From NCBI GenBank assembly GCA_010093605.1, contig MU004192.1, positions 881,774 through 945,773 on the forward strand: DNA of 64,000 nt. The letters are read 5' to 3'. The notes below the pieces were generated by a model, which did no database searches, had not been told where the DNA came from, and worked only from the letters and a program-made list of their open reading frames with translations. Of the stretch, positions 21,569 through 44,308 are shown in pieces. A program made the translations under genes and the position numbers. Origin of the DNA: Lophium mytilinum. Taxonomy: Eukaryota > Ascomycota > Dothideomycetes > Mytilinidiales > Mytilinidiaceae. Position 1 is the stretch's first letter; every line of letters begins with the position of its first letter.

Positions 21569-22904
21569 GGTTGAAAGGAACGGCCGGAAAGGGGCGTATT
21601 GTTGAGCGAACGAAAATGCTCAGAGGCAATCCAGGGCCCGCAGATGGGGGTGAAAGCAGACGGTCGTAGAGAAGCATGAGATGAGAAGGGCTGCGAAGGC
21701 AAGGGGAAGCGATAGAAAACATTATGATGGTGGCTTCCGACTGTTTCAGTATGTGTGCAGAAAGTGCATATGTCGGTCAGGAGATTTATCGGAAGCCACC
21801 TTGATCCAACAACGCAGAGGCTTGTGATGGAAGACCGAGAAGGAATCATAGATGACAGTTGGCGCGGAAGGCTTGCGAAAGTATAAGAGGTACCTAGATA
21901 AAGTATGTATATGAAATATAGGCTACGCGTCAGTTCATCTAGAAAGCGGTCCGCTACATGTCTAGCAAACTAGAATGAACCATTTAGCTGGCCAAGGTTT
22001 GTAGAAGGAGCATCGTTAGTATTGCGGAAGGACTGATCAAGCCCAAGAACCTAAAAGTAGGCCATCGAGATGGGTGAAATGACACTGCCGCGTTTGAGGC
22101 ACGTGACCAGCTAGCGGGAGCGACCTGGCATTTAGTATAGTATGCGGCACGCTGGGCATAAAACAGGGGCAGGCGTACTGCTTGTGTACACCTTTCTGTC
22201 GCTGCTTGTGATGTTTCTCTGCATTTTAGAAATATACACGAGATAGAAACTCTTAGCTTTGGGCTATGTAGGAACACGTTGAGGCACTCCAAGCAGATGT
22301 AAACACGACCACACGAGGTTGAATGCTTGCTGAGTGTGCCACATTACTCAGGTCCAGCGTGTGCGTGTCGATGCAAGCAGATTGCTGCGGTAGAGGTTGC
22401 TTGTGTCCTATCTGAGATACGGACTGCGCATATACAGTTTCCCCCTGCCAGATGATGCAGCAGCCATTGGGGAGGATGCAGGTGGTGCTGGCGGCGCAAC
22501 GGGGCGGAGGATGAGGCTCTCGGTCTGATGTTGGCCACTTCGGGGGCTGCTGCGGCGAAGTCCTGACGGCGTATCACGATAGGTAGCTAAGAGAGGCGTG
22601 GTGTTGAGGACCAAGGACGTAAGCGCAGACGTCGGCCGCGAATCCGCAGGGCACAGGTCCTCTATTCCGCCATCAATCAACGACACGACTGCCACAGAGG
22701 CCCGCCCTCGACGGCCCCCTACATACGAAAGCCTTGCCGATCCTACGCAATTCCTGGGCCACGGGCCTGCAACATACACGGCCAAATCTCCCGCAGCCGT
22801 CGCCCCCAGTTCCAAGCTTCGCTGCCCGCACAACCCCGACCTCTCCACCGAACGACGACGACCACCACCTTGCTCGTTTCCGCACCACTCGCTCCAGCGC
22901 CGCC
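21569..22904. other. Intergenic, divergent promoter
   Basis: Region between the disordered-protein gene and the kinase gene. The last 300 bp before 22905 is an open frame without ATG and probably 5' leader of the kinase. No other feature seen. Confidence 0.4.
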
Positions 22905-25558
22905 ATGAATGGGGACCTGAGCCTCTCGCAGAGCCTCGGGGGCCTGCGGATCGCCAATCCCGACGACGACAACGACTCGCCGTCGCCGCCGCTGTCGCGC
23001 CCCCAGGACCAAGACGCCCAGCTACGCCCACCATCGCAATCATCCTCCAGCACCGTGACGGAGCAGCAGAGAGGTGCTGTTCCGCCGCAGCTGCTGTCAG
23101 AGCCCCCGCCCTCCTCTTCCCTCGGCTTCGACCCGAATACCTACTCCCACAGCGCCCACTCGGTGCCCTCGAGCACCCCTCCGATGCAGCCTGCTGTGGA
23201 GCAAGCCTATGCTACGCGCCTTAGCCATCGACAATCCATGCCGCTGGCCCACCAAGCTCAGCAGCAGGCCCAGCTGCCTCAGTATGCGGCTGCCACTACG
23301 AGCCAACCGCGGAATTACCCTGCAGCTGCGATACCGCAGGGCCGACCTCAGTCCAGCTTCTACAGCCACGGCAACCTTTCCGGCTCCGGCATAGTCAACA
23401 ACGGCACATACCGATACAACGATGATGCAATGATGGGGCCGAGTGCAGACATCAGGAGGACAAGCAGCTCGAGGGTGGCACCGCCTGTCATGCACGGCAG
23501 CATACCCTCGAGAGAGATGAGCAAAAGCAATAGAGGATACCGACAGCCTGGCCCCGGGCCGCTGCCAGGTGGAAATGGACCCGCTCCACCACGCAGGAGT
23601 TCGCGTCGGGAACCGATGCACGATCATTACGGTGTCAGTCCACCAGTGATAGGCCAGGGAATCAATTCTCCATACAATGTGGACGGGGGTCCATTACCTA
23701 GTAGCGAAGAGTGGAAAGAAAAAGGCGCTTCAGTCAGCATGCGACAGGAAGTTGATTCGAATGGGAAGCCAGTTGTAAGAGTTGTGAAGAAGGGCGTGAA
23801 AGATTTCAATTTTGGGCGGACACTAGGAGAGGGTTCATACAGCACAGTGTTGGCTGCAACCGACAGGCAAACGTTACGAGAGTACGCTATCAAAGTCTTG
23901 GACAAACGGCACATCATCAAGGAAAAGAAGGTCAAATACGTCAACATCGAAAAGGACACACTCAATCGACTCACAGAGCATCCGGGCATCGTCCGGCTCT
24001 ACTACACATTTCAAGACGAGCGTTCGTTATATTTCGTGCTGGATTTGGCTAGCGGAGGGGAGCTCTTGGGGTTTCTCAAGAAGATGACCACATTCGATGT
24101 GGAATGCACGAGGTTTTACGGTGCTCAAATCCTTGATGCTATCGACTACATGCACTCCCGAGGAGTGATACACCGAGATCTCAAACCCGAGAACGTGCTG
24201 CTGGACGACCAAATGCACGTGAAAATAACCGACTTCGGAACCGCAAAGATTCTTGATACTTCAAATTTAAACGGGATCGGATCAGTGTTAGGAGATCCGC
24301 TGAGCGGTATGCAGTCAGACAGGGCGGTCTCGTTTGTAGGGACGGCAGAATACGTCAGCCCGGAGTTACTAACAGACAAAAACGCCTGCAAAGCTAGCGA
24401 CTTATGGGCATTTGGTTGTATCATTTACCAGCTTCTGGCAGGAAGGCCACCTTTCAAAGCTGGCAATGAGTATCAGACGTTCCAGAAGATCGTCGGCCTT
24501 GAATACACATTTCCGGACGGGTTTCCAGACATTGCACGGGACTTGGTTGAGAGGCTTCTCGTACTAGATCCGGCTGCACGCTTACCAATGGAACACATCA
24601 AAAACCACCAATTTTTCGACGGAATCACCTGGGGCAAAGGCCTATGGAAACAAAAGGCTCCGCGATTAAAGAGCTATGTACCGCCAGCCCAGGAGCCGAT
24701 CAGACTCAATGGCAACGGAGGTTCTTATCCACCACCAAAGTCGTCGGGCCCACCGTTAGGTACTGCTTCAAGCGGCAACCAGTTGCGCCCCCAACCAAGG
24801 CTCATTACCGAGCTTCCGCCTCCAAGTCAGCTTGACATTGAGTGGTCCCCCGTTTTGACTCGAAACAACGAACGAATCTTAAAGCTTGGGAATCTTGTAG
24901 TCACTACAAACCCTGCACCGCACAGCCCCACTTCAAAGAGTGGGGAGGCTTCATCAGATACCCCTAAGAAGTTCTCGCGTTTCTTTGGTGGCAACACAAC
25001 GAAGAAAAGGCAGCGACTAGTAATGATAACCTCTGGGGCGCGCATTATTCTAGCTGCTGCTGGCGGCGAAGAGAAGAAAACTAAGATGGAAGTATCGCTA
25101 CTAGGCGCGGGCTGTGCCTGGAAAAGCTACAAGGACTCGAAGGGTCTCACTTGTTGGTGTGTAGATACAGTACGTTCGCTTTCCCCCCTTTTCCGGCTTT
25201 TTCTAACAACATACAGAAAGATAAGCATCTTGTTTTCGAGGATCCAAAGGCCACCACAAGCGACCCCGACGGAAGCAAATACTCAGCGCAAGAATGGATC
25301 GACAACATTGAGCGTGCCAGGGAACTAGCCATATCCCAGAGTATGACGAACTCATACTCCAGCGATTCTGCATTCAACGATCTAGCATCAACAATTTCGA
25401 GTCCTGCGAGTACATTAGGCGGGGATGCCGCATTCGATGGACCCAACATCCCTACGGCAAGGCACTTAAGGAAAGAGCACGGCGATAACGACTCCATGAA
25501 AGGCCGTAAGCGCTTTAGCAGACGACACTCGAAGAACGGGCTTGCTGCCGTATTCTAA
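22905..25558 (+). CDS. PDK1-type protein kinase (Pkh family)
   Basis: Two exons, 22905-25169 and 25217-25558, give 868 residues; the 47-nt intron has GTACGT, TCTAAC and ACAG. A 300-residue disordered N-terminus precedes the kinase domain (about 300-575): GEGSYSTV loop, EYAIKVLDK lysine, HRDLKPEN near 422, DFGTAK, and SFVGTAEYVSPELL, the activation-loop form typical of PDK1. A C-terminal PH-like domain (from about 643) starts DIEWSPVLTRNNERILKLGN and continues across the intron. The family phosphorylates AGC kinases such as Ypk/Sch9/Pkc1 at the plasma membrane and acts in sphingolipid and cell-wall signalling. The ATG at 22905 is chosen because the upstream open frame has no ATG and the context CGCCATGA is good. 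Confidence 0.95.
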
Positions 25559-27263: not shown

Positions 27264-28882
27264 TCACGCCTTCTCCAACTCCTCAAACCTTACCCTCAAC
27301 CCCATCGGCGCCAACAGGCCACCAGGGGTAAACTTCACCGTCACCCCATCTTCCAAACTCAACCTACTCCTTCTTACGCACTCCACCACCGCAACTCTAA
27401 GCTCCACCATCGCAACCCCCTGTCCCAAGCACGCCCGCCGTCCCCCATGGAACGGCACATACTTCCCTCTCGCCGTCCATTTCCGCATGTTCGCGTGCAT
27501 CTCCTCAGTGCTTCCTCCCCATCGCTCCGGCTTGAACTCCTCCGCATCCGCGCCCCACGCCGCCGTGTCCCTGTGCGCGCCTGTAGCCGTCCAGCCTACG
27601 TACGCGTCTTTCGGGATCTGGATATTGGACGGGCCGAGAGTGGCTGCGGCGGTGGTACACCGGTTTAGCAGCTGCGGGATGGGTGGGTAGAGACGGAGTG
27701 TTTCGAGGAGGAAGGAGGTGAGTAGTGGGCTCGCTTTCATGTTCGCGATATCCGTGGTAGCGTCGGGCGATGGAGAAGAGAATTCGGCGCGGAGGGCGGA
27801 TTGGAGGTGGGGGTGGGCGGCGAGGAGGTAGAGGCAGGTGTTGAGGCCTTGTTGGACGTTTTCGTGGCCCGCTATGAAAGTGATCTTCAGATTGTCGCCT
27901 GTGTTGCGTGTTAGATCGGTGTGAAGGGGAAGGGAGGTGGGAAAGGGGCGCACGGAATTGCTGCTCTGTCCATGTTCCGTCTGCTTTAGCTCGCTTCATG
28001 AGGGAGATGAGTCGGTCGTCGTCTTCTGGGAAGTCTTTGGTTTGCTCGAGGACGGTGGTGACGAGCTCGTTTTCGAATTCGTGCACGAGGGCTCTGGCTT
28101 TTGTTCGGGATTCGATGGGGAATTTGTCGAGGAAGGGCGCGACGAGGAAGAGAGGCTTGAAGATCTGGACTTTGAGCTGGGAGTGGATGGCGTGGATGCG
28201 GGGGGTGTCTGAGTCGAGTGTCTGGTGGTGAATTAGCACCACGGTTGGGCCCTACATTGAACGCAATTGCCATCATTGATGTGGTTAGGTATATACCCAC
28301 TTTGAAATCCGTTCCCAGCACTGTCTCTCCAAGAGTCTGCATCGCAAACCTCTGAATAAATGGGTTCACCATCACACCCTTTCCCTGTGGCAGCTTTCTC
28401 TGCGCCTCCAACATCAACCCCACGAACTTCCCTGCATTTTTCTGGATCCCCTGAAAGTCGAAATCTTGCCGTTGCAACCCCGGCTGCATGACCGTACGAT
28501 AGCTCTTCCACGTCTCCCCATGTGCTGAGATAACGTTATCCCCTGTGAACGCCGCAAGTACGCTATATGGTATCTTCTTCTGGTTCCCACTCTTCGCATA
28601 GACGTCCTCATGCTTCAGTACTTCAAAGAGAAGCTCAGGGCGTTGAACGAGGATGTTCCAGCGGCCGCCGAAGAAGTAGTTGACAGCGCCGTGGGCAGTG
28701 ATGGAGGGCTTGATATACTGGGCGTATATTTCAAGTTGGTCAAGGTTGGTAAGAAAGCCGAGGAGGGACACCCAGATGGGAATGGTGGGGATGTTGCGAG
28801 GGAAGTTTGAGGGGGGAGAGAGGGCACGGTGGAGCAGGAGAGCCAGAGTGACGAGGACGCCGGCTATGACTAGGAGAGCCAT
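27264..28882 (-). CDS. Cytochrome P450, DIT2-like, of the isocyanide cluster
   Basis: Three exons, 28882-28301, 28221-27954 and 27898-27264, give 494 residues. An N-terminal membrane anchor (MALLVIAGVLVTLALLLHRA) places it on the ER. The I-helix reads FIAGHENVQ (near 292), the K-helix ETLRLYPP (349), then FKPERW, and the haem loop FHGGRRACLG with Cys440. The I-helix Glu-Asn in place of the usual Asp/Glu-Thr is the form I associate with CYP56/DIT2-type enzymes. In yeast DIT2 couples N-formyltyrosine made with DIT1. Here the enzyme sits in the same group as an MFS exporter and a DIT1-type synthase, so oxidation of a tyrosine- or valine-derived isocyanide or formyl product is the likely job. Donors are GTGGGT and GTGCGC. 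Confidence 0.93.
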
Positions 28883-29026
28883 GTTCTAGTGAAGAGGATG
28901 ACAAAATCTGATTATGAAAGAATCGACGAGAACAGAAGGGAACAAATATCAAGGGCCGAAGAGCGAGCATATGGGACTAGACACTATGAAAAAATGATAG
29001 GGACGCTTTGATATATTAACAAGGAC

Positions 29027-29611
29027 TTACGCGCGGGAAGCATCATCGGAGACCCCACCAGCCCCATGCAGCATATCCCCTGCAAGAAACATGATTACGG
29101 TGTCAGTCATGCACAGCACGACTTCCTTCAGCCCCCAGGGTTTTGCATCCCCAGCTAGCCATGGTAAATCGGAGCGTCCAGCTCCCACGTCGCCAAGTAG
29201 TAAGCGGTGAGCTCGGGCGTTTGCGCTTAGACGCCCAGCTGAGTAGGGCGGTGCCTGCATGCCAAGAGCGTCCGCGGCCTCGACGTTTCGAAGATAAGCT
29301 GGGGCTGAAAAGCTACCTCTGATGCTAGTCTGCGATGCTTTTTGCATTGAGAGCGGTCTCGCCGTGGACATTATCGAGGCAAGAGGCGAAGTGCTTGGCA
29401 GGCTTTGTGAACACTCTTCTAGATGTCTTACATAATTTCTGAATAAGTGAGATTGAAATTGAGTGAATGATGATACATTACTGTGCTTTGTTGGTAATCG
29501 CGGTATTATGAGAGTATACATATAAATGATGTCTACAACGAATCCCAGAACGCCGACTATGCAGATCGCTAAGTTCAAAGCTCTTATATAGACGCCACTG
29601 CTTGCCCTCAT
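29027..29611 (-). CDS. Possible small membrane protein overlapping the MFS stop
   Basis: An open frame of 194 residues starts at an ATG whose TG is the start of the MFS gene's TGA stop (ATGA overlap). It has one hydrophobic segment at the N-terminus (ALNLAICIVGVLGFVVDII) and a soluble Ala/Leu-rich remainder ending GAGGVSDDASRA. Codon choice looks like coding DNA, especially in the distal half. I recognise no domain. It lies between the exporter and the P450, on the same strand, 144 bp before the P450 start. It may be a separate gene, part of an unseen spliced gene, or chance; an internal GTAATG-TTCAG intron changes the frame to an early stop. Confidence 0.4.
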   Translation of the reverse strand: MRASSGVYIRALNLAICIVGVLGFVVDIIYMYTLIIPRLPTKHSNVSSFTQFQSHLFRNYVRHLEECSQSLPSTSPLASIMSTARPLSMQKASQTSIRGSFSAPAYLRNVEAADALGMQAPPYSAGRLSANARAHRLLLGDVGAGRSDLPWLAGDAKPWGLKEVVLCMTDTVIMFLAGDMLHGAGGVSDDASRA

Positions 29612-31460
29612 CTCTGAATCGTCGACGGCGCCAGACTGACCGCTGACACTCCAGCAGCTCCCTGACCTACACTCGGCGCCGCTTTTGCTTTTTCTGCGGC
29701 TATCTCGTCGTCTATCCTCTTCCTCCAGCCTGGCCCGTACCAAATGAGGACGATCACCATCAGAATACAGCTCATATCTAGAGCTGCCAGGCCGCGAAAG
29801 GTCCATCCAATCCCGATCTTTGTCACTATAGGGTCGATTACCAGCGAAGCCAACGACGCGGCTGGATTGCGGAAGAGACTAGCAATGGCCACAAGAGTGG
29901 CGGCTTGCCCTGGCTTAGCTAATGTCATGTACGTTGTGTTTGTCGCAAAGACCCAGCTCATGCTAAAGCCGACCACGGCTGTCGCCGTGAGCACAACGGC
30001 AGGGTGGAACGCAAAGTAGCAGGACCATCCGTAGAGCTCGATGCCGATCGGGAAGAGCACCACGCCAAAGAGTTGTGATTTGATGCGGTGCTCTGGAGCA
30101 ACTTTACCATCGGGGCTCGCGCGTTGGGCGCGGGTGTGGTCCCAGTCTGAATAGCGGCCGCTGAGAAGTGACCCAGCAATCATCGAGACGCCAATAGGGA
30201 TGTATGCGACGCCAATCGCGGTTTCCGAGAAGTGATATTCGTACTTTAAACGGGTGGGGAGAGTGACAGCGACGCAGTAATAAGAGCCGAAGAGGATTGC
30301 TACGTTGATGGAGACGAGTACGATTGGTGGGTATTTGAGCAGCTTGAAAACATTCATCGCGCTTGGACGCTTCATAATTATGGTTCCTGGTGCGATAGGA
30401 GCGCGAGCATGGAAGTTGGGAAATGCGATCCAGGGTCCGTCGGCGTGGAGGGCTGAGTTCCCTACTTTTGCACGGAGTGTTTCGGGGAGGCAGAAAAGCA
30501 TCCAAACCCAGATTGCGGCACCTAGGATGGCGAGAAAGCCAAATATCCATCTCCAAGAGGTACTACCTATGATAGCGCCCCCAATGACTGGTCCGAGCAC
30601 AGGTCCGAGCTGGGGACCAAGCATGAAGCTAAGTAAATTAGTCATATGCACACGTGGCCCTGTCGCGGTGAATGGTACTAACATTGAGATAGCTCCTGCT
30701 CGGATCTTCGGCTCATACATGTCCGCGATGGTGCCTGCCCCTAGACTGGCGACGCTTGATGCGCCAGTAGCTTGCAAGATACGCAAGAAGAAGAGGGCGC
30801 CATAGTTGGCAGGAATAAAGATAAGTATGGCATTAGCGAGTACGAATATTAGAAACGATATGGTGTATAGCGGCTTCCGGCCCATGAAGTCTGCACAGGC
30901 TCCCCAAAAAAGAGGCTAAGAGAAATCAGCTGTCTGAGTAATAGGGATAAAGACCAAAATAGGCTATTCCATACTGCGATAGCAAAGACTAGCATGAAAA
31001 TGGACACTGTGGCGTTGATGGCTACTCGACTGACGTGGAAATCTATGGAGAGCTGAGGCAGAGCTGGGAGGTAGATGTTCCCGGCGACAGGAGCTAGAAA
31101 AGCAGCGGCTGTGACAATCGCAAGGAGAAATTTGCGGCGGCCATCGGAGAATGCTGTATATGGTGGCTTCTGGGGCTTCGACAACGGAGCTTCAGTCTCG
31201 CTTCGAGGGAGCAGGAGAGAGGTGTCTGAGAAGTCGCGAGCTGGCGCGGGATCGTTGGTTTCAGTCTGCGAAAGTAGAGAGACGGAAGAAGAGTTGCGGC
31301 GATGTCCAATAGCATGTTCAGGCTCAGCTGCAGGGACGGAAGAGTAGCTGGAGGAATTGCCACGATAGCCCAAGGAAGGAGTTTCATGACCAATAGTGAT
31401 GGTCGGAACTTTCTGCAGAGGATAGATTGGCTGCAGCGGAACCGAGGAGGGAGCTGCCAT
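29608..31460 (-). CDS. MFS exporter (DHA1 type, DTR1/QDR-like)
   Basis: Three exons, 31460-30975, 30915-30683 and 30628-29608, give 579 residues. A 110-residue Ser/Pro-rich cytosolic N-terminus precedes 12 predicted membrane helices. The loop 2-3 motif GACADFMGRKP and the antiporter motif C, LGPQLGPVLGPVIGGA, identify a drug:H+ antiporter of the DHA1 group. Helix 1 reads FLAPVAGNIYLPALPQL, as in QDR and the yeast dityrosine exporter DTR1. The second intron (GTTAGT to TTAG) is exactly 54 nt, free of stops and in phase; removing it restores an unbroken motif C. The gene is divergent from the isocyanide synthase and probably exports the cluster product or gives self-protection. Confidence 0.92.
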
Positions 31461-32714
31461 GGTGGAGTGACAAAATTCGGAGTAGAGAGAAGAGAGACGG
31501 AAGAGGGGAAGGGCGATAAGGCGAATAGACAGCGTATAGCTTTCACGCGGAAGTCAGACTGCCCTATAGCGGCATCATTGCCTCGACCCGCAGCATCGCT
31601 CAGCCCTCAGCCCTGTGCGGGGGGGTAGGTCCTACAGCGCACGGTAACATCGACTGGGCGTCTTGGACTCATCTCAGGCGGGCTTGGGACTCGACTTTTG
31701 CGGTGAGCATGGTGAGACGGCGGCTAGCTAGCAGACGGCGAGGAAAGGGCAAGCACAGCCGTATCAAGGGCCGTGGAATGCATGTCGGTCTGGAAACTAA
31801 CATTAGAGTATGCATGCATGGCTCAGGAGAACTCGGAGCGTGGGTTGCATAGCGAAGCTAAAAAGGAGCAGATCTCAGCCCCGATACCAAGCTTCAAGCC
31901 TGCCTGCTGTCTGAGCAAACGCCGAATGTTGTTGGTGGCATAGTTGTGTCGGGGAGACGCGAGAGGGAGCGGGCGGCATGAGCTGAAGTTGCCCAGCTAT
32001 TCACTGCTTGGCAGCCCCAGCCACCTTGAGCTTAGCTCCATTCTAGCACCAATCGCACGGTGCCGTTGGATACATTGCGCCAGCCACTGGTCTGAGCGCA
32101 TGCAACCCTCGCCAGTCACTAGGGACCTGTGTGGGCTAGCTGCCAAGTAGGGCTGTAATCCTACGATTTGCTAAGACGAGCATCGGCTACGGATCATGCA
32201 ATTGGCGTAGCCGCCCTAAAACGCAACTCCACCCGTTGTAGGGCTGAGACTCCACACCGCAACCCAACCCACCTCGCGTCCCAATGCATCAAAGAACACC
32301 CGCGGCGGTGCACGCTACGGGCACTACCATAGTAAACATGGGCTTGCGGGGACCAACACGTACCGCCGACATGTCGCCGATGACAGGCTCGGCCTGCTGA
32401 ACAAACGGCGAGCTGGGCACTTGGCATTACGGCTGCAGCAAGGTGTGCGACTGGAACAGCTGGCAGGCCCTGATAGACCGCTGTGCCGGCGGGCGGTCCA
32501 GGATGCTGCGAATGCTTGTCACTGCTCTAAATCCGACCTGGGGGTGAGGCTGAAGCCATGGGGTGCTAGAATGCACCTTCGGGCATAGGTATATAGTTTC
32601 CTGAAGCAGACCAAGACTATCCTTTATCAAACTCACCATCTATCATCTTCTCTTCGCTTTTACTACTCATCAATCGCTTGATTTCTGTTCAATTCCTCCT
32701 ATACTACCGCAATA
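31461..32714. promoter_or_regulatory. Divergent promoter of exporter and isocyanide synthase
   Basis: A 1254-bp gap between divergently transcribed cluster genes. A TATATAG lies at about 32590-32596, 119 bp upstream of the synthase ATG, followed by a C/T-rich leader typical of fungal promoters. No ORF of coding character. I did not find a convincing regulator palindrome by eye. Confidence 0.45.
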
Positions 32715-34621
32715 ATGGTCGAAGTCAAGCGTGGTGATTCCCCTTATCATCAGATCCGTGCCCAATACACTCGCGACGCTGAAGGCAAATTGCTCGCCGT
32801 CTTTGGCCCAGAAGCTCTTTTAGTCGAAAAGGACTGGGAAACGTACTGGGGGAGATTTGTCCAGCCCAATGCCACTGCCAGCAAACGAGCCATCACTACA
32901 ATCAGCTCCTCTCTCACAGCCTTCGAGGTCGACAATCCTACAGGCGTCATCGCCGAACCCCTAGACTCCAGTTCTGTCACACCGTCACAAACAATTGAAA
33001 TATGGGAAACCCAGCTCGAGGACGAGACACAGATTCGTGGCCTCCTGAAGCTCCCCAACTCATACTTCAAGAAGCCAGTCACCGACGCTGTTGCTGAGTG
33101 GGCTGTTTCGCTGGTCTTGAAGACGGCGAGACTTGCACATTGCCAACCTCTACCGGAAGAAGATGAGAAAGCGATGAACCTAGCCAACACCATCACCGAT
33201 ATCTTCTCAGACACACTACGAAACATTGCCGATGGGGATCAGTGGGACTTCGGAGGCCGCGATTACTTCAGGGACAGGATACTTCTCTTCACATCTCGAA
33301 AGCAGAGGATCGATATGATTCTTCCTGCGTTCCCGTGCAAGTCTTCTTCTCTGAACAAGGTGGCAGGAACTCGCCCGGATAAAGGCGAGGAGCTGGGCCT
33401 AAGAGGCCTGTATCTTTTCGTGAAGGATATCGAGAAGATTTACCCTCCGGGCGCATGCTGCTTTATCGCATCTGATGGTCACGTCTTCAGTGACAACAGT
33501 AAGCACATTCAAACGTTTCCGGTAGCAAGATGCTAACCTCACCAGTCGGTGTCGATGACGAAGTAGTAGACACCTACAGCTCCCAGCTCATCGAAATGAA
33601 GGACGCCATGTTAGGCCCCGAATCGAACCGCATTGGCTTCTTCGGCCTACCCGCCCTCTTCGCTCTCGGCGAACTCAACGCTCCTACATCTGCGGTTGCT
33701 AAACTCGACCTCCCCAATTATGTCAATACCAAACACACCGAGGACGCCAACCTGTGCCGTAAGCTCATGGTACATGCTTTCGGCATCGACGGCTCAGCGC
33801 TCCGCAACAAAATTGAAAGCGGCGATAAGGCAGCACTAGCCCTCTACCGCGGGTTCACACGCTTCATGCTTGAGGACCTCTCCCACAACGGCTTCATGAT
33901 GTCGAAATCCAAGTCCCAGCAGAAGAAACTCGCTGCCAAAATTGCTTTTGAGATGCTCAAGCGCAACCAAGCTTACTCCAATCTTTGCGAGCTCCTCTTC
34001 CCCGCCTCCGTCCGCCTCTCCATCCACGCCCACGTCAATTCCGGTCCCAAGTTTGGCTGTAACCTTCTTTCACGTTTTAACTGCCGCACCACCGCCTCCC
34101 TGCTTGACTACTCCCCTGAGAAAACAGACGACCTCCTGCATGTGCCCACCCCCTGGCACAACACGATGGTCAAGATGGCGCCCCAAGATGGCTTCCTCCT
34201 TATCAAAGCCTGCCTTGTGCATGAAGCCATTGGCGAGGGCAAATACACCTCCGCCTGGGTCGAGTCCAACCTAACTACCGGTGAGGGCGGGTACTTCCTC
34301 CTGACATCTACCACGCCCAAGGCCCGCAAGATCAGTCTCGCACAGAAGGTCAACTCGCGCATTATCCCTTCGTTACGTCTGGCAACCAACTTCTCTCTGT
34401 CTGCAGAACGCAGGAAGGCACTCATCGACGACGAGACATTCTCGCCTGGCGGTGCTGCGGCGCAGGCAATGCTGTTCTCGGCAAATGAGCAGAAGCTGGT
34501 GCTTGAGCGAAGGGAGAGCATGGGGATCAAGAGTGCGGGCATCAAAAGCCCGACCAGCCATAGTCCGTTTGGAAGTGGAGTAGGGAGTTTGGCGAGGAGG
34601 TTTACGACGATGAGGGTCTAG
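32715..34621 (+). CDS. Isocyanide synthase / DIT1-PvcA family
   Basis: Two exons, 32715-33498 and 33546-34621 (47-nt intron with GTAAGC, GCTAAC, ACCAG), give 619 residues. The DIT1/PvcA family converts an amino acid, usually L-Tyr, Trp or Val, to an N-formyl or isocyanide product. Family blocks seen: RIDMILPAFPCKSSS (near 200), PDKGEELGLRGL, YPPGACCFIASDGHVFSDN, and RLSIHAHVNSGPKFG (near 416), then TPWHNTMV. A C-terminal ~90-residue Ser/Gly-rich extension has no domain. The N-terminal ~170 residues are also outside the core. It is one domain, unlike fused synthase-dioxygenase or synthase-NRPS-like proteins. It is divergent from an exporter and near a DIT2-like P450; substrate cannot be read from sequence. 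Confidence 0.93.
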
Positions 34622-39482: not shown

Positions 39483-41587
39483 TCACAACCCAGAATCAGT
39501 CTTCTGATACACCGGATTCTGATAGTACGTCTTCCAGTCCGTACACTGCGTATCCCAGTCGGAGCCGGGGAGGGTGATCTGGCTCTTAGCCTCTAGGAAC
39601 TGCACACCGAGGCCCTCGCTGATGTGCCACGCGATATGGCAATGCATGAGCCAGGCACCGGGGTTGTCCGTTTGGAAAGCGATGGCCAGCCAGCCGGCGC
39701 CGGGCAGCAGGGCGACGTCGCGGCGGGTAGGGTTGTTCCAGGTTAGGGTCGAGGGGGAAGAGTTGATATCGAAGGTACCGGAGCCCGTGCCGAGGACGTA
39801 GAAGTCGTGGCCGTGCAGATGTATGGCTGGATTTTAGTTAGCAGCATTCAAAGAAGTGGCAGGATAGTAAAAGGAGGGAAGATTGATAGAGAGACAGAAA
39901 GAGGAGGCTTACGATGCGGAATAGGCACCTTGGTTCCCGGTGTCTCCTGGATAATCCAGTACGTCCAGATCCCCTCTGTGGGCAGCTCGATGAGGTTTAA
40001 TACCGATGGATATGACGTGTTTCCAGTCTTCACGTACTCGAGCGTCGGATTGCGCCAATCAACGTCGATAGCGGAAACATTGACGCCCCAGACGACGATG
40101 TTTTGGCCGTTCGTCGTGACCTGCTCGACAGCCAGATCGACGTTGAGATTACCGACTTGATTGATGAAGTCCGAGCTGGAGACCGTGTTTGTGACCCAGG
40201 GTACGAGAGTCTTATCCTCGACGCAGCCCCCGCTGGGAGCTGTGAAAGCAGAGGTCGTTGGGTCGCCAGAGGCAGCACCGGCATAGCTGAAAACACTGCG
40301 GCCGTAGAAGTTGTTGGAGCTGGCGCAGTCGGTAGCAACTTCTGCGCGGAACCAGTAGTTGGAGACGGTCTGGTTGGCGTAAATGATCACGTCGTACCGT
40401 TGACCGATGGCCAAGAGAACCCAGTTTGTGTAGTACGGTTTGATAGGAACCAAGTCAGCCGTAATGACCTGCAGTTGGTGGTTATCCAGCGAAACGCGGA
40501 TGTTGTTGTCAACAGACGTGTTGATCAGACGTAAGCGATACTTTTTCCCCTTCGTGAGTTGGACTTGGTCATATGCTCCTGCGCCACCCGGGCTCTTATT
40601 CTTGCCATTGATGAGAAGGGTATCCGCAGGTGGCGGGGGCTGTCCCTGCTGAAGGTTGCTGAAATGTATATTAGTATCGGCTTGAGACTACCAGGACGTA
40701 TAGAAACTCTTACTTGGAAGCGATAACGTTAAGCTGATCTGCAGTACTATAATACCAGTCGTTGACTGGATAAGGACCTAGGTCAACGTCATAGTTTGCA
40801 GATGCAGGACCGTTGATTTTGATCGCGCCAATGAGGCCGTCGCCGTATTGAGAAGAGTAATGGGAGTGATACCAGGTCGTGCCGAATTGGGTAGCTTTCC
40901 ACGTGTATACTTTGGTGTCGCCAGGTGCGATAGGACCTAATTCTCGTAAGCCAAAACTACTCAGTACAATCGCTAGGCAAAGTATTACACTCGGTGATTC
41001 CGTTGACACCATCCATAGCATTAGTGTTGAGCTGTCGGATACCGTGCCAGTGGATGACTGTGCCGTTCCCGGTCAACTTATTTACTACCGTGACCTGCAC
41101 AGTGTCTCCCCAGTCTAGTTGAATCAGTAAATGACGTTGGGCGTATCTCGTAGGAGGTCCACTCACTGGCTTCAATCGTAGGACCTGGGTACTGGCCGTT
41201 ATAAAGAAAGCATATCCGATCACCGTTCCCATCCGGATTACACGTCGTGTTCGTGACAGTCAGAGTGTATTGAACCGTGTTGCCGGTGGTTGGCCATTTT
41301 TTATCAAAATCTGTCAAGACGGAATAGCCACTTGACCAGCAATTGCGTGAAGTTGGTCCATTGGTACACGCCGCATCGGCGACCTTGGAAGTCGAGCTGG
41401 GAGCGACCGAGCTAGTCTTGGAAGTCGAGCTGGGAGCAACCGAGCTAGTTGCACGGCGCACATTGTGAAGCGTTGCCCCAGCAGAGCCGCCTGGTCCCCA
41501 TAGAACGTGATCTTGGGGGATTTGTGTAGCTGTTGTCGTGGAAGCTAATGCCAGAAGGCAGGCGGCGGCCAACTGCGTCACGCGCAT
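39483..41587 (-). CDS. Secreted laccase (ascomycete multicopper oxidase)
   Basis: Five exons, 41587-41167, 41114-40989, 40936-40714, 40658-39913 and 39826-39483, give 619 residues. A signal peptide (MRVTQLAAACLLALAS) leads, then a Ser/Thr linker with the 11-residue unit TSSVAPSSTSK, given twice in tandem. All four copper-binding blocks are intact: HWHG (162), HSHY, HPIHLHGHD (about 505) and HCHIAWHISEGL. The type-1 copper axial position follows the HCH block. Laccases oxidise phenols with reduction of O2 to water, outside the cell. The C-terminus DSGL resembles the short C-terminal plug (DSGL/I) of ascomycete laccases. It may serve pigment, phenol detoxification or oxidative coupling of a secreted metabolite. 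Confidence 0.96.
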
Positions 41588-44308
41588 ATTGCCTGAAGGA
41601 TGATTGAAAAGTACACGCAATCAATGATCTAGAGGCAGAAAGACGGAAGAATTAGAAACGAAGGAGACTCCTAAAGTATGGAAATCGTTTGAATTGGGAA
41701 TGCAGGTACTTGACCGAGAGAAGGGAGCTAATATATATGCTATAAGAATGCAGGGTCCGAAATTTTCAGCGTAAGTAGACGCGCACTGCTTCCAATACCG
41801 ATTTTAGAGCCACCAGCTAGACTCTTCTGGCCATCGAGGTGCTGCCCTGTCACCTCACCTGGAGACATGGATCGGGTACGGAGTAAATTACGCGATCCAT
41901 AATGTTGGGGCCGGAAGGACTGGCTGCATGAACGTCAGGGGGGAGTAACTGGAATAGATCAAGGGGAAATTTGACAAAGCTTGTTGCACGACGTGAGGGC
42001 CAACCGAGAGAGAAAATTCGCCACCAGCGAATGAGAAGAGATTTCATGAGAGAATGGCCACTTCGTCGCGGATTCGCAATGTGACCGGGTCTCCAAGGCG
42101 GACTGGGCTGACCGGCTGCCTGCCAAATTGTCACAGCTGGAATGGAACATTGCATGAAAGCGAAGATAAAGCGGAGACTAGTAAAACAAGGAGATAGGTC
42201 CCTGATTGAGGCTGACAGAACGGAAAAAATATGCAAGGCTTAGGGCATTGCCTGTTTTGGCGGGCTACCAGCCGGTGCTCCAACCAAGGAAACGCGATCC
42301 CGAGCTAGTGGAAGCGATCCACAAGAGGCCGCCGCAGGTAACAATGATGCGGATCCTTCTACGTATTGGCTGATACGAGAACTTGATCCGCGGAGGGATT
42401 ACTTCTCCGCTGGCATCCATCGTCTACTCCCTGATTCGTCACCACTCCTCCATAGTTGCATGCAGGCACATTATGCATTGAGCAAGGTACAAGAAATAGA
42501 TCTCAGACTCTGTCTCGTTATTTCGGTCTCGATTCGGTCCGCTGATGGATACGATCGAAATCGTTACACGGCATCACCCCCGCTTTACCAACCTGAAGGC
42601 GCAGCGTCCTTTGAAACTGGCTGGCGGATCGCCCGCGGGAGAGGAGTGGTGCCGCCACAGCAGCACAGGCACGTTGTCTCCCGACGGTAACGTGAACAAG
42701 GCGAAGCGAGGAGTCTAGAATTGACGCCACCATTTCGGGACTGAAGTGCTTCCGACGTGGATTGAATCCCGAGAGAGAGCTCCGTTCTGCATGATTGATG
42801 GCTGCAAGGAGGCTGAATAGACGAGCATACAGCGCCAAAGGGGCCGCTGGCGCTAGGATGCGTACGTGATCAGTAACTTGTAACCCACAAGCGAGTGCCT
42901 GCATACATGTGCGGTGCACGGGGCTGGGATCTTCACGCTGGTACCTGGTCCCTGGACACTTCGCGCCCGAGCATCTGGCATGCTGGGCCAGCGGGTTGGA
43001 GACTCATCCCTCAACACCAGAAAATAGGCCCCGCGATGCCCATACGCTGACAAGACTTAGCTCCGAGGGGCCTCTCGTGCAACCCACCACACATGACAGC
43101 TGACTCTGCCTCGCCCAGCGTTTTACGTGCTGCGCTCTACCTCAAAGTCAGCGCCTTTTGGTTCAGCGAAGGTTCATATTAACTCGACGACGACGGGTCG
43201 ACGGCAGAACGGTGTGGTATGTGGTACACGAGGCGCCAAAGCCTTATGAGGGCACCGGCGGAGTTGCGCGGAGTCGATGGCATGATGCGAGACGTGCAGC
43301 GGGGTTGCAGAGAGCGGGAATGAGCGGCGTGGATTTGCCCGGCGTAGGTTTACCATGCACTCGGCATCTGGTCCATGCATCGCATTCTGTTCATCACGAT
43401 GCTGTGATGGGTTGTTGTGGTGGGTGGGTTCCTATGCATTTGCAGGACGTGGGTGAGGTAAAAATAAGCGCTACGCCAATCGTGCCCATCTCCCGCGATC
43501 TTCCCGCCCGCAAGAAGACCCTTTCTCCTTCGCCACTCACGTTGCCCGCACCACGGCATGCTCTCACCGACTGCCGCTAGCTAGCCGGCCCTTGTTTGCT
43601 TCTGGCACTCCCGGGCATGTGGAGTCGCTAGGTACCGCTTCCCAGCACGGCCTGTGGCTTGAGCAGGGGATGCAGCAGAGCGCCACCAGCCATGGCTCCC
43701 CACCTCCCCTCCGATCGTTGTTTGGAGGACGCTCTTGTCAGCTCGAGCTCTCGCAACCGATCCACACCGATCCACATCTCTACCAATCGGTGAATAGAGC
43801 CTCCCGCAGCCGAGCCCGATTACTCGACTGTCGGCCTCTTAGCTCTGAGCCGAGCGTTCCGTCCCGAGTCTCCTCCAGATGCAGCTTTGCGGCGCCCGTC
43901 TGACTCCTGCGTCCGCAAGACGGCCTGCAGGAAGCAATGACAGCTGGCAGAATCTCCAGCTTTGGAAGCCTACACATCTGACCTTGTCACTGGCACCTGT
44001 CACGGCTCCGGAAGAATGAAGCAAAGTGTCTCCCTCAAGATAAGCTTCTGCCAACATACGCCAGGCGCCACTGTGCAGATGCGGCCCTGGGCTACGTTTC
44101 GGAAAGATTCAACAGCTTCAAAACGGCTCCCGAAATAGATTTTCGCACTACGGAGCCTGTCCGGGGAAAAGGGGCGATTGGAGACATAGCTCTGCACCAA
44201 CATCGAAGCCTGGATGGCGCAACATGCTGGACCCAGCGCTCTCGTCATCGCCACGACTGTCGCAGGGTACGAGGTGTCCTGCAGTAGCCCCAATGCGGCA
44301 TCACGATA
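41588..44308. other. Long intergenic region, no clear gene
   Basis: About 2.7 kb upstream of the laccase. Many open frames exist on both strands but none shows a recognisable domain or consistent splice structure. A minus-strand frame at 44293-44000 next to the MITE looks weakly coding. Confidence 0.4.
41731..41739 (-). promoter_or_regulatory. TATA element of the laccase gene
   Basis: A run ATATATAT lies about 145 bp upstream of the laccase ATG (41587), on the minus strand CATATATATTAG. Position and composition fit a TATA box. Confidence 0.4.

Follow-up and report, generated by a model that had tools for sequence, protein, structure and literature searches.

What does a synthase of the DIT1/PvcA family make when its gene lies beside those of a cytochrome P450 and an exporter? 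The question is raised by three genes at positions 27264-34621 of the window, a stretch of 64,000 nucleotides (C12:881774-945773) from a genome that was searched over its 43.18 Mb and 24 contigs, and whose short predicted introns and gene families suggest a filamentous ascomycete as the source. The trio is probably a cluster of the dit superfamily, making a dityrosine-type building block for the spore wall. It fits inside 7.4 kb, from the P450 stop codon to the synthase stop codon, in the order P450 (minus strand), exporter (minus strand) and synthase (plus strand), and each gene forms an open frame after predicted splicing, with the splice sites of all three being predictions from the sequence. 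The earlier note on this DNA had proposed a synthase, a P450 and an exporter within this distance, and the family matches and intact predicted gene models confirm it; the same models bear out the arrangement that it described, with the synthase divergent from a DHA1 exporter and the P450 behind the latter. Because the P450 sits behind the exporter, it is not itself on the divergent promoter of the synthase. The gene models, in window coordinates, are as follows.

32715-34621, plus strand: single-domain DIT1/PvcA synthase, two predicted exons, 619 amino acids (aa).
32715-33498, plus strand: synthase exon 1 of the spliced model, with the N-terminal extension and the start of PF05141 (98.5 bits).
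33499-33545, plus strand: predicted synthase intron, 47 nt, canonical-looking, with a CTAAC branch-site-like sequence; splicing leaves the frame uninterrupted.
33546-34621, plus strand: synthase exon 2 with the stop codon, carrying the remainder of PF05141 (153.8 bits) to about aa 484 and then the C-terminal extension; relatives in the PDB are 9dhm, 9dh4 and 3e59.
31461-32714, no strand: divergent intergenic region of 1254 bp, common to the exporter and synthase gene models.
31460-29608, minus strand: DHA1-type exporter of the major facilitator superfamily (MFS), 579 aa in a three-exon model.
30975-31460, minus strand: exporter exon 1 of the gene model.
30683-30915, minus strand: exporter exon 2, carrying motif A; MFS_1 matches at 107.8 bits across the frame 29611-30915.
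30629-30682, minus strand: proposed second exporter intron, in frame, 54 nt, with splice-like sequences.
29608-30628, minus strand: exporter exon 3, with motif C (GPVLGPVIGG) and the stop codon at 29608; supported by MFS_1, a PDB relative and motifs.
28883-29607, no strand: exporter stop to P450 start in the gene models, 725 bp, containing a doubtful open frame.
28882-27264, minus strand: P450, a DIT2/CYP56 candidate, three predicted exons, 494 aa.
28301-28882, minus strand: P450 exon 1, with a hydrophobic N-terminal anchor (segment aa 3-21); PF00067 at 32.8 bits.
27954-28221, minus strand: P450 exon 2 of the gene model.
27264-27898, minus strand: P450 exon 3, with the AGHEN I helix, ExxR, PERW, the heme-binding Cys and the stop codon; PF00067 at 125.5 bits.

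The identity of the synthase is the foundation of this reading. The hidden Markov model search against PF05141 (DIT1_PvcA) that the earlier note had proposed returned matches over both exon frames, each above the cut-off of 26.4 bits, and in the Pfam search these frames matched PF05141 only, with neither TauD (PF02668) nor domains of the nonribosomal peptide synthetase (NRPS) type. The core aligns with solved structures of isonitrile synthases (9dhm, 9dh4) and of PvcA (3e59), with E-values from 2.3e-32 to 2.9e-21, and the single NCBIfam match is to the L-tyrosine isonitrile synthase model, at 126.6 bits and thus far under the 600-bit cut-off of that model. The PF05141 region spans approximately aa 192-484, with some 190 aa preceding it and some 135 aa trailing; the N- and C-terminal extensions that had been noticed on first reading are therefore real relative to the bacterial enzymes, whose solved representatives are 315-330 aa long. 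Neither extension has a match in Pfam or among PDB sequences. Yeast Dit1 is about 536 aa long, a length that would leave a long N-terminus too. Among 80 bacterial relatives, 55 columns are conserved at 95% or more, and the synthase retains 46 of them. This count is biased upward, since the relatives (80 of 103 confirmed loci) were picked for resembling the window synthase, and near-copies are numerous among them. The conserved stretches LPAFPxKS, SDGxVF, RLSIH and TPWH are present, and the nine columns that differ include IHAH in place of the bacterial IHPQ.

The genome holds four exon-level matches to PF05141, two per gene, and the second gene lies on another contig, C20. This other synthase retains 39 of the same 55 columns and is 28% identical to the window synthase over 284 aligned positions, which rules out a recent duplication of the two. 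All 80 bacterial loci outscore the C20 synthase when compared with the window synthase, and the converse comparison gives the same result (80 of 80). The dit synthases are described as deeply diverged from other fungal synthases (PMC10153163), and the higher scores of each synthase with bacteria agree with this published divergence, without proving membership in the dit clade. At approximately 68071-70455 of C20 (loci L005 and L006), frames for PF05141 and TauD are immediate neighbours on a single strand and may represent one fused gene. Near this locus are two MFS-type frames, at 25.8 and 30.2 bits (below the 33.4-bit cut-off), and an SGL-domain frame; among the matches listed, none to the window P450 falls within 200 kb of it.

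The P450 belongs to PF00067, with matches in its first and last frames that both exceed the cut-off of 22.8 bits, and it carries ExxR, PERW, a heme-binding cysteine in FHGGRRACLG and an I helix reading AGHEN. The Asn of AGHEN is replaced by Thr in all six of the paralogous loci that could be read at this position (seven were fetched, L010-L016), and the motif would fit a coupling P450 rather than an ordinary hydroxylating one. Among the 53 other genome matches listed there is no close paralogue, the best reaching 74 bits and the identities running from 23 to 43% over partial stretches. LUTEIN DEFICIENT 5 is the best solved relative, with CYP3A4 lower in the list. A genome search for I-helix-like DNA words gave 442 matches, as against 341 for the reversed control, and was uninformative.

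The exporter matches MFS_1 above its Pfam cut-off and has a motif A reading GACADFMGRK in addition to its motif C, the pattern of a DHA1-type protein. Motifs A and C are DHA1 motifs, and motif C is typical of exporters. Among solved proteins, its top relative bears the name quinidine resistance protein 2 (E 4.9e-35), and the genome contains 76 exon-level matches to it, two of them its own, with the best-scoring relative 33% identical. The first gene model had two exons and 597 aa, in which a simple scan found 13 hydrophobic segments, some overlapping. Within this model, 30629-30682 looks like an intron, having a GTTAGT donor, a GACTAAT branch-like site and a TTAG acceptor, and its removal leaves 579 aa and raises the score against three of four paralogous loci, while slightly lowering it against the fourth; the exporter thus probably has a second, in-frame intron here. 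Between the exporter and the P450 lies an open frame of 194 aa (29027-29611, minus strand) with a strong hydrophobic segment. As a fourth gene it was rejected, having no Pfam match and a third-position GC of 0.48, compared with 0.57-0.71 in the trio genes, and it is probably not a gene.

How might these three proteins work together? In the yeast cytosol, Dit1 is believed to convert tyrosine to N-formyl-tyrosine, and Dit2, in the endoplasmic reticulum, couples formyl-tyrosine, after which bisformyl dityrosine goes to the spore wall (PMC7345447); Dtr1 and Dtr2 are named as the transporters (PMC6162784). Each member of the trio matches a step of this scheme, the steps being taken from the protein families. 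The DIT1-like synthase would modify the amine of L-tyrosine with a one-carbon unit, yielding an isocyanide and then an N-formyl group, and the membrane-anchored P450 would join the phenol rings of two such modified tyrosines. The DHA1 exporter would then carry this dimer from the spore cytosol to the outside, and polymerisation would follow in the outer wall of conidia, ascospores or both. Under this scheme we infer tyrosine as the substrate, formyl/isocyanide chemistry, a coupling role for the P450, the dimer as cargo of the exporter and expression at the spore stage. It is disputed whether the pathway ends with the isocyanide or only passes through it: PvcA fails to rescue loss of dit1 (PMC7345447), whereas a tyrosine-derived isonitrile comes from a Phycomyces strain that encodes a protein like Dit1 (PMC13005658).

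The other outcome offered by the earlier note was a copper-regulated isocyanide. Here, the synthase of a copper-responsive cluster would release a stable tyrosine isocyanide, which the P450 would join into a xanthocillin-like dimer for secretion by the exporter. In clusters with a fungal isocyanide synthase (ICS), the most frequent partners are reported to be MFS and P450 genes (~60% and 34.6%; PMC10153163), XanG is termed a Dit2 homologue (PMC5974471), and the Phycomyces strain with its Dit1-like protein gives a tyrosine-derived isonitrile (PMC13005658). Nevertheless, we consider this outcome unlikely. The synthase exon frames have no TauD domain; PF01965, the isocyanide hydratase family, has five matches in the genome and none on C12; and the C20 locus, with PF05141 and TauD side by side, fits a xan-type role better. 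Copper words point the same way in a test of low power, in which 12 short motifs (sporulation, WOPR, conidiation, copper and others) were sought in two promoter regions, giving 24 tests: Mac1- and AceA-like words were not enriched, with one Mac1-like site found (p 0.16). The single pathway of DIT1/DIT2/DTR1 type put forward in the earlier note is supported, and its copper-regulated alternative is weakened by the domains, the C20 locus, the hydratase family and the motifs. The evidence leans towards a dityrosine-like wall pathway mainly through the domain make-up of the synthase and the separate ICS-dioxygenase-like gene in the genome. It is also conceivable, if improbable, that only the synthase and P450 form a dit pair, between which an unrelated drug exporter lies by accident. 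DHA1-type genes are indeed many in this genome, the nearest solved relative is a drug-resistance protein by name, and the hitchhiking of flanking genes is a concern raised by Nickles et al. (PMC10153163). Against this, MFS genes are recurrent neighbours of dit1/dit2 in Clan 3 and in Onygenales (PMC10153163), DTR1 is placed within the Coccidioides cluster (PMC12077801), and the window exporter sits on the promoter from which the synthase diverges. A chance neighbourhood of three unrelated genes is barely credible: P450 and MFS genes are numerous in the genome, but a crude estimate of the chance that a synthase has a P450 no more than 6 kb away and an MFS gene no more than 3 kb away gives 1.5e-4 from the observed match counts and 1.7e-3 when gene numbers are assumed to be larger, and the same trio occurs in published clusters (PMC10153163, PMC12077801).

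Several observations weigh against a dityrosine-type wall pathway. Family-level matches and position are what make the P450 a DIT2/CYP56 candidate and the exporter a DTR1-type candidate. A tree with bacterial relatives leaves both fungal synthases on very long, unplaced branches, and in this second tree, built from 82 sequences reduced to 31 by removing near-copies more than 80% identical, grouping the two fungal synthases together is not rejected (p-AU 0.39). A first tree (82 sequences reduced to 38), in which the fungal pair was adjacent with weak support (81/64), was discarded because some bacterial loci were apparently in wrong frames. In the motif test described above, with its low power, no sporulation-type motif was enriched in the two promoter regions, and none of the 12 motifs was enriched in the 1254-bp divergent region; the lowest p-value, 0.05, belongs to a PacC-like word in the P450 upstream region and is unremarkable among 24 tests. 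The longest word common to both promoters is 12 bases (p 0.09), which lends no support to a shared element. Finally, it is the exporter and not the P450 that is on the divergent promoter with the synthase, unlike the yeasts surveyed.

The genes flanking the trio are of other kinds. On the P450 side is a protein kinase gene, possibly PDK1-like (22623-25328, plus strand; Pkinase 219 bits), and adjoining the synthase is an NCS1-type cytosine/purine permease on the minus strand, from 36029 to approximately 37059 or beyond, with PF02133 in two frames. About 5 kb from the synthase lies a multicopper oxidase (39483-41620, minus strand) with Cu-oxidase, Cu-oxidase_2 and Cu-oxidase_3 domains and an N-terminus that looks like a signal peptide by eye; PF00394 has 13 exon-level matches in the genome. 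This oxidase could polymerise wall phenols, with the permease gene intervening before the synthase. A bolder reading would have the locus be a dit cluster after rearrangement: the exporter would have taken over the divergent promoter of the synthase, with synthesis now co-regulated with export instead of with coupling, and the product, possibly isocyanide-bearing, would be polymerised outside the cell by this laccase-like oxidase. We regard this as highly improbable; if true, the wall polymer would be unlike yeast dityrosine. The presence in one genome of a dit-type locus (C12) and an ICS-dioxygenase-like locus (C20) offers a within-genome contrast. It would allow a single species to be used to test whether Dit1-type synthases of moulds release N-formyl-tyrosine or a stable isocyanide, a point under dispute.

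How does this probable dityrosine-type cluster compare with known systems? The same three predicted activities are those of DIT1, DIT2 and DTR1 in S. cerevisiae, and the synthase and P450 are divergent in both. In S. cerevisiae, DTR1 is unlinked to the other two genes. The yeasts surveyed have DIT1 and DIT2 next to each other, antiparallel and on one promoter (PMC6723986), whereas in the window the exporter lies between synthase and P450. In the filamentous fungus Coccidioides, DIT1, DIT2 and DTR1 are likewise found together, in a six-gene cluster expressed in spores, and deletion of all six genes or of only these three thins the arthroconidial walls (PMC12077801). Its locus tags run DTR1, DIT2, DIT1, while the exporter is in the middle of the window trio, and it includes a cutinase-domain gene (PMC12077801), in contrast to the kinase, permease and multicopper oxidase that flank the trio; no cutinase match was found among the scanned frames of the window, which comprised 24 of the 30 that reach 220 aa, plus shorter ones. 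The xan cluster of A. fumigatus, with the ICS-dioxygenase XanB and the P450 XanG, shares the synthase family, a P450 and a transporter (PMC5974471), but the window synthase lacks TauD and its contig lacks a PF01965 match. The absence of NRPS-type domains from the synthase frames similarly sets the locus apart from ICS-NRPS genes of the crm type. Yeast Dit1 and A. fumigatus IcsA are likewise described as having no second domain (PMC5974471), A. nidulans is reported to have ditA and CYP56B1 as a clustered pair with consecutive locus numbers (PMC5863032), and a CYP56 member is reported in Cochliobolus miyabeanus (PMC4890743).

The survey of Nickles et al. (2023 preprint) finds dit1 and dit2 co-located in 17.1% of Ascomycete species and fragmented in another 11.2%, with about 30% of Ascomycetes carrying the pair in either form; it states a divergent orientation of dit1 and the P450 for all dit clans, and includes an MFS gene in the dit clusters of Clan 3 (Dothideomycetes) and Onygenales (PMC10153163). 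Should the Clan 3 clusters follow the gene order seen in Coccidioides, the window trio, with its central exporter, would depart from them. The window locus shows the features of this superfamily, namely a single-domain PF05141 synthase and a P450 transcribed away from it, together with the MFS gene of Clan 3, so that its likeness to the Clan 3 and Onygenales clusters extends to synthase, divergently oriented P450 and MFS gene alike. As both the cluster family and a spore-wall phenotype in a filamentous fungus are already published, the locus comes as a small surprise: the gene trio and its spore-wall role are already known, and this is a further intact-looking example.

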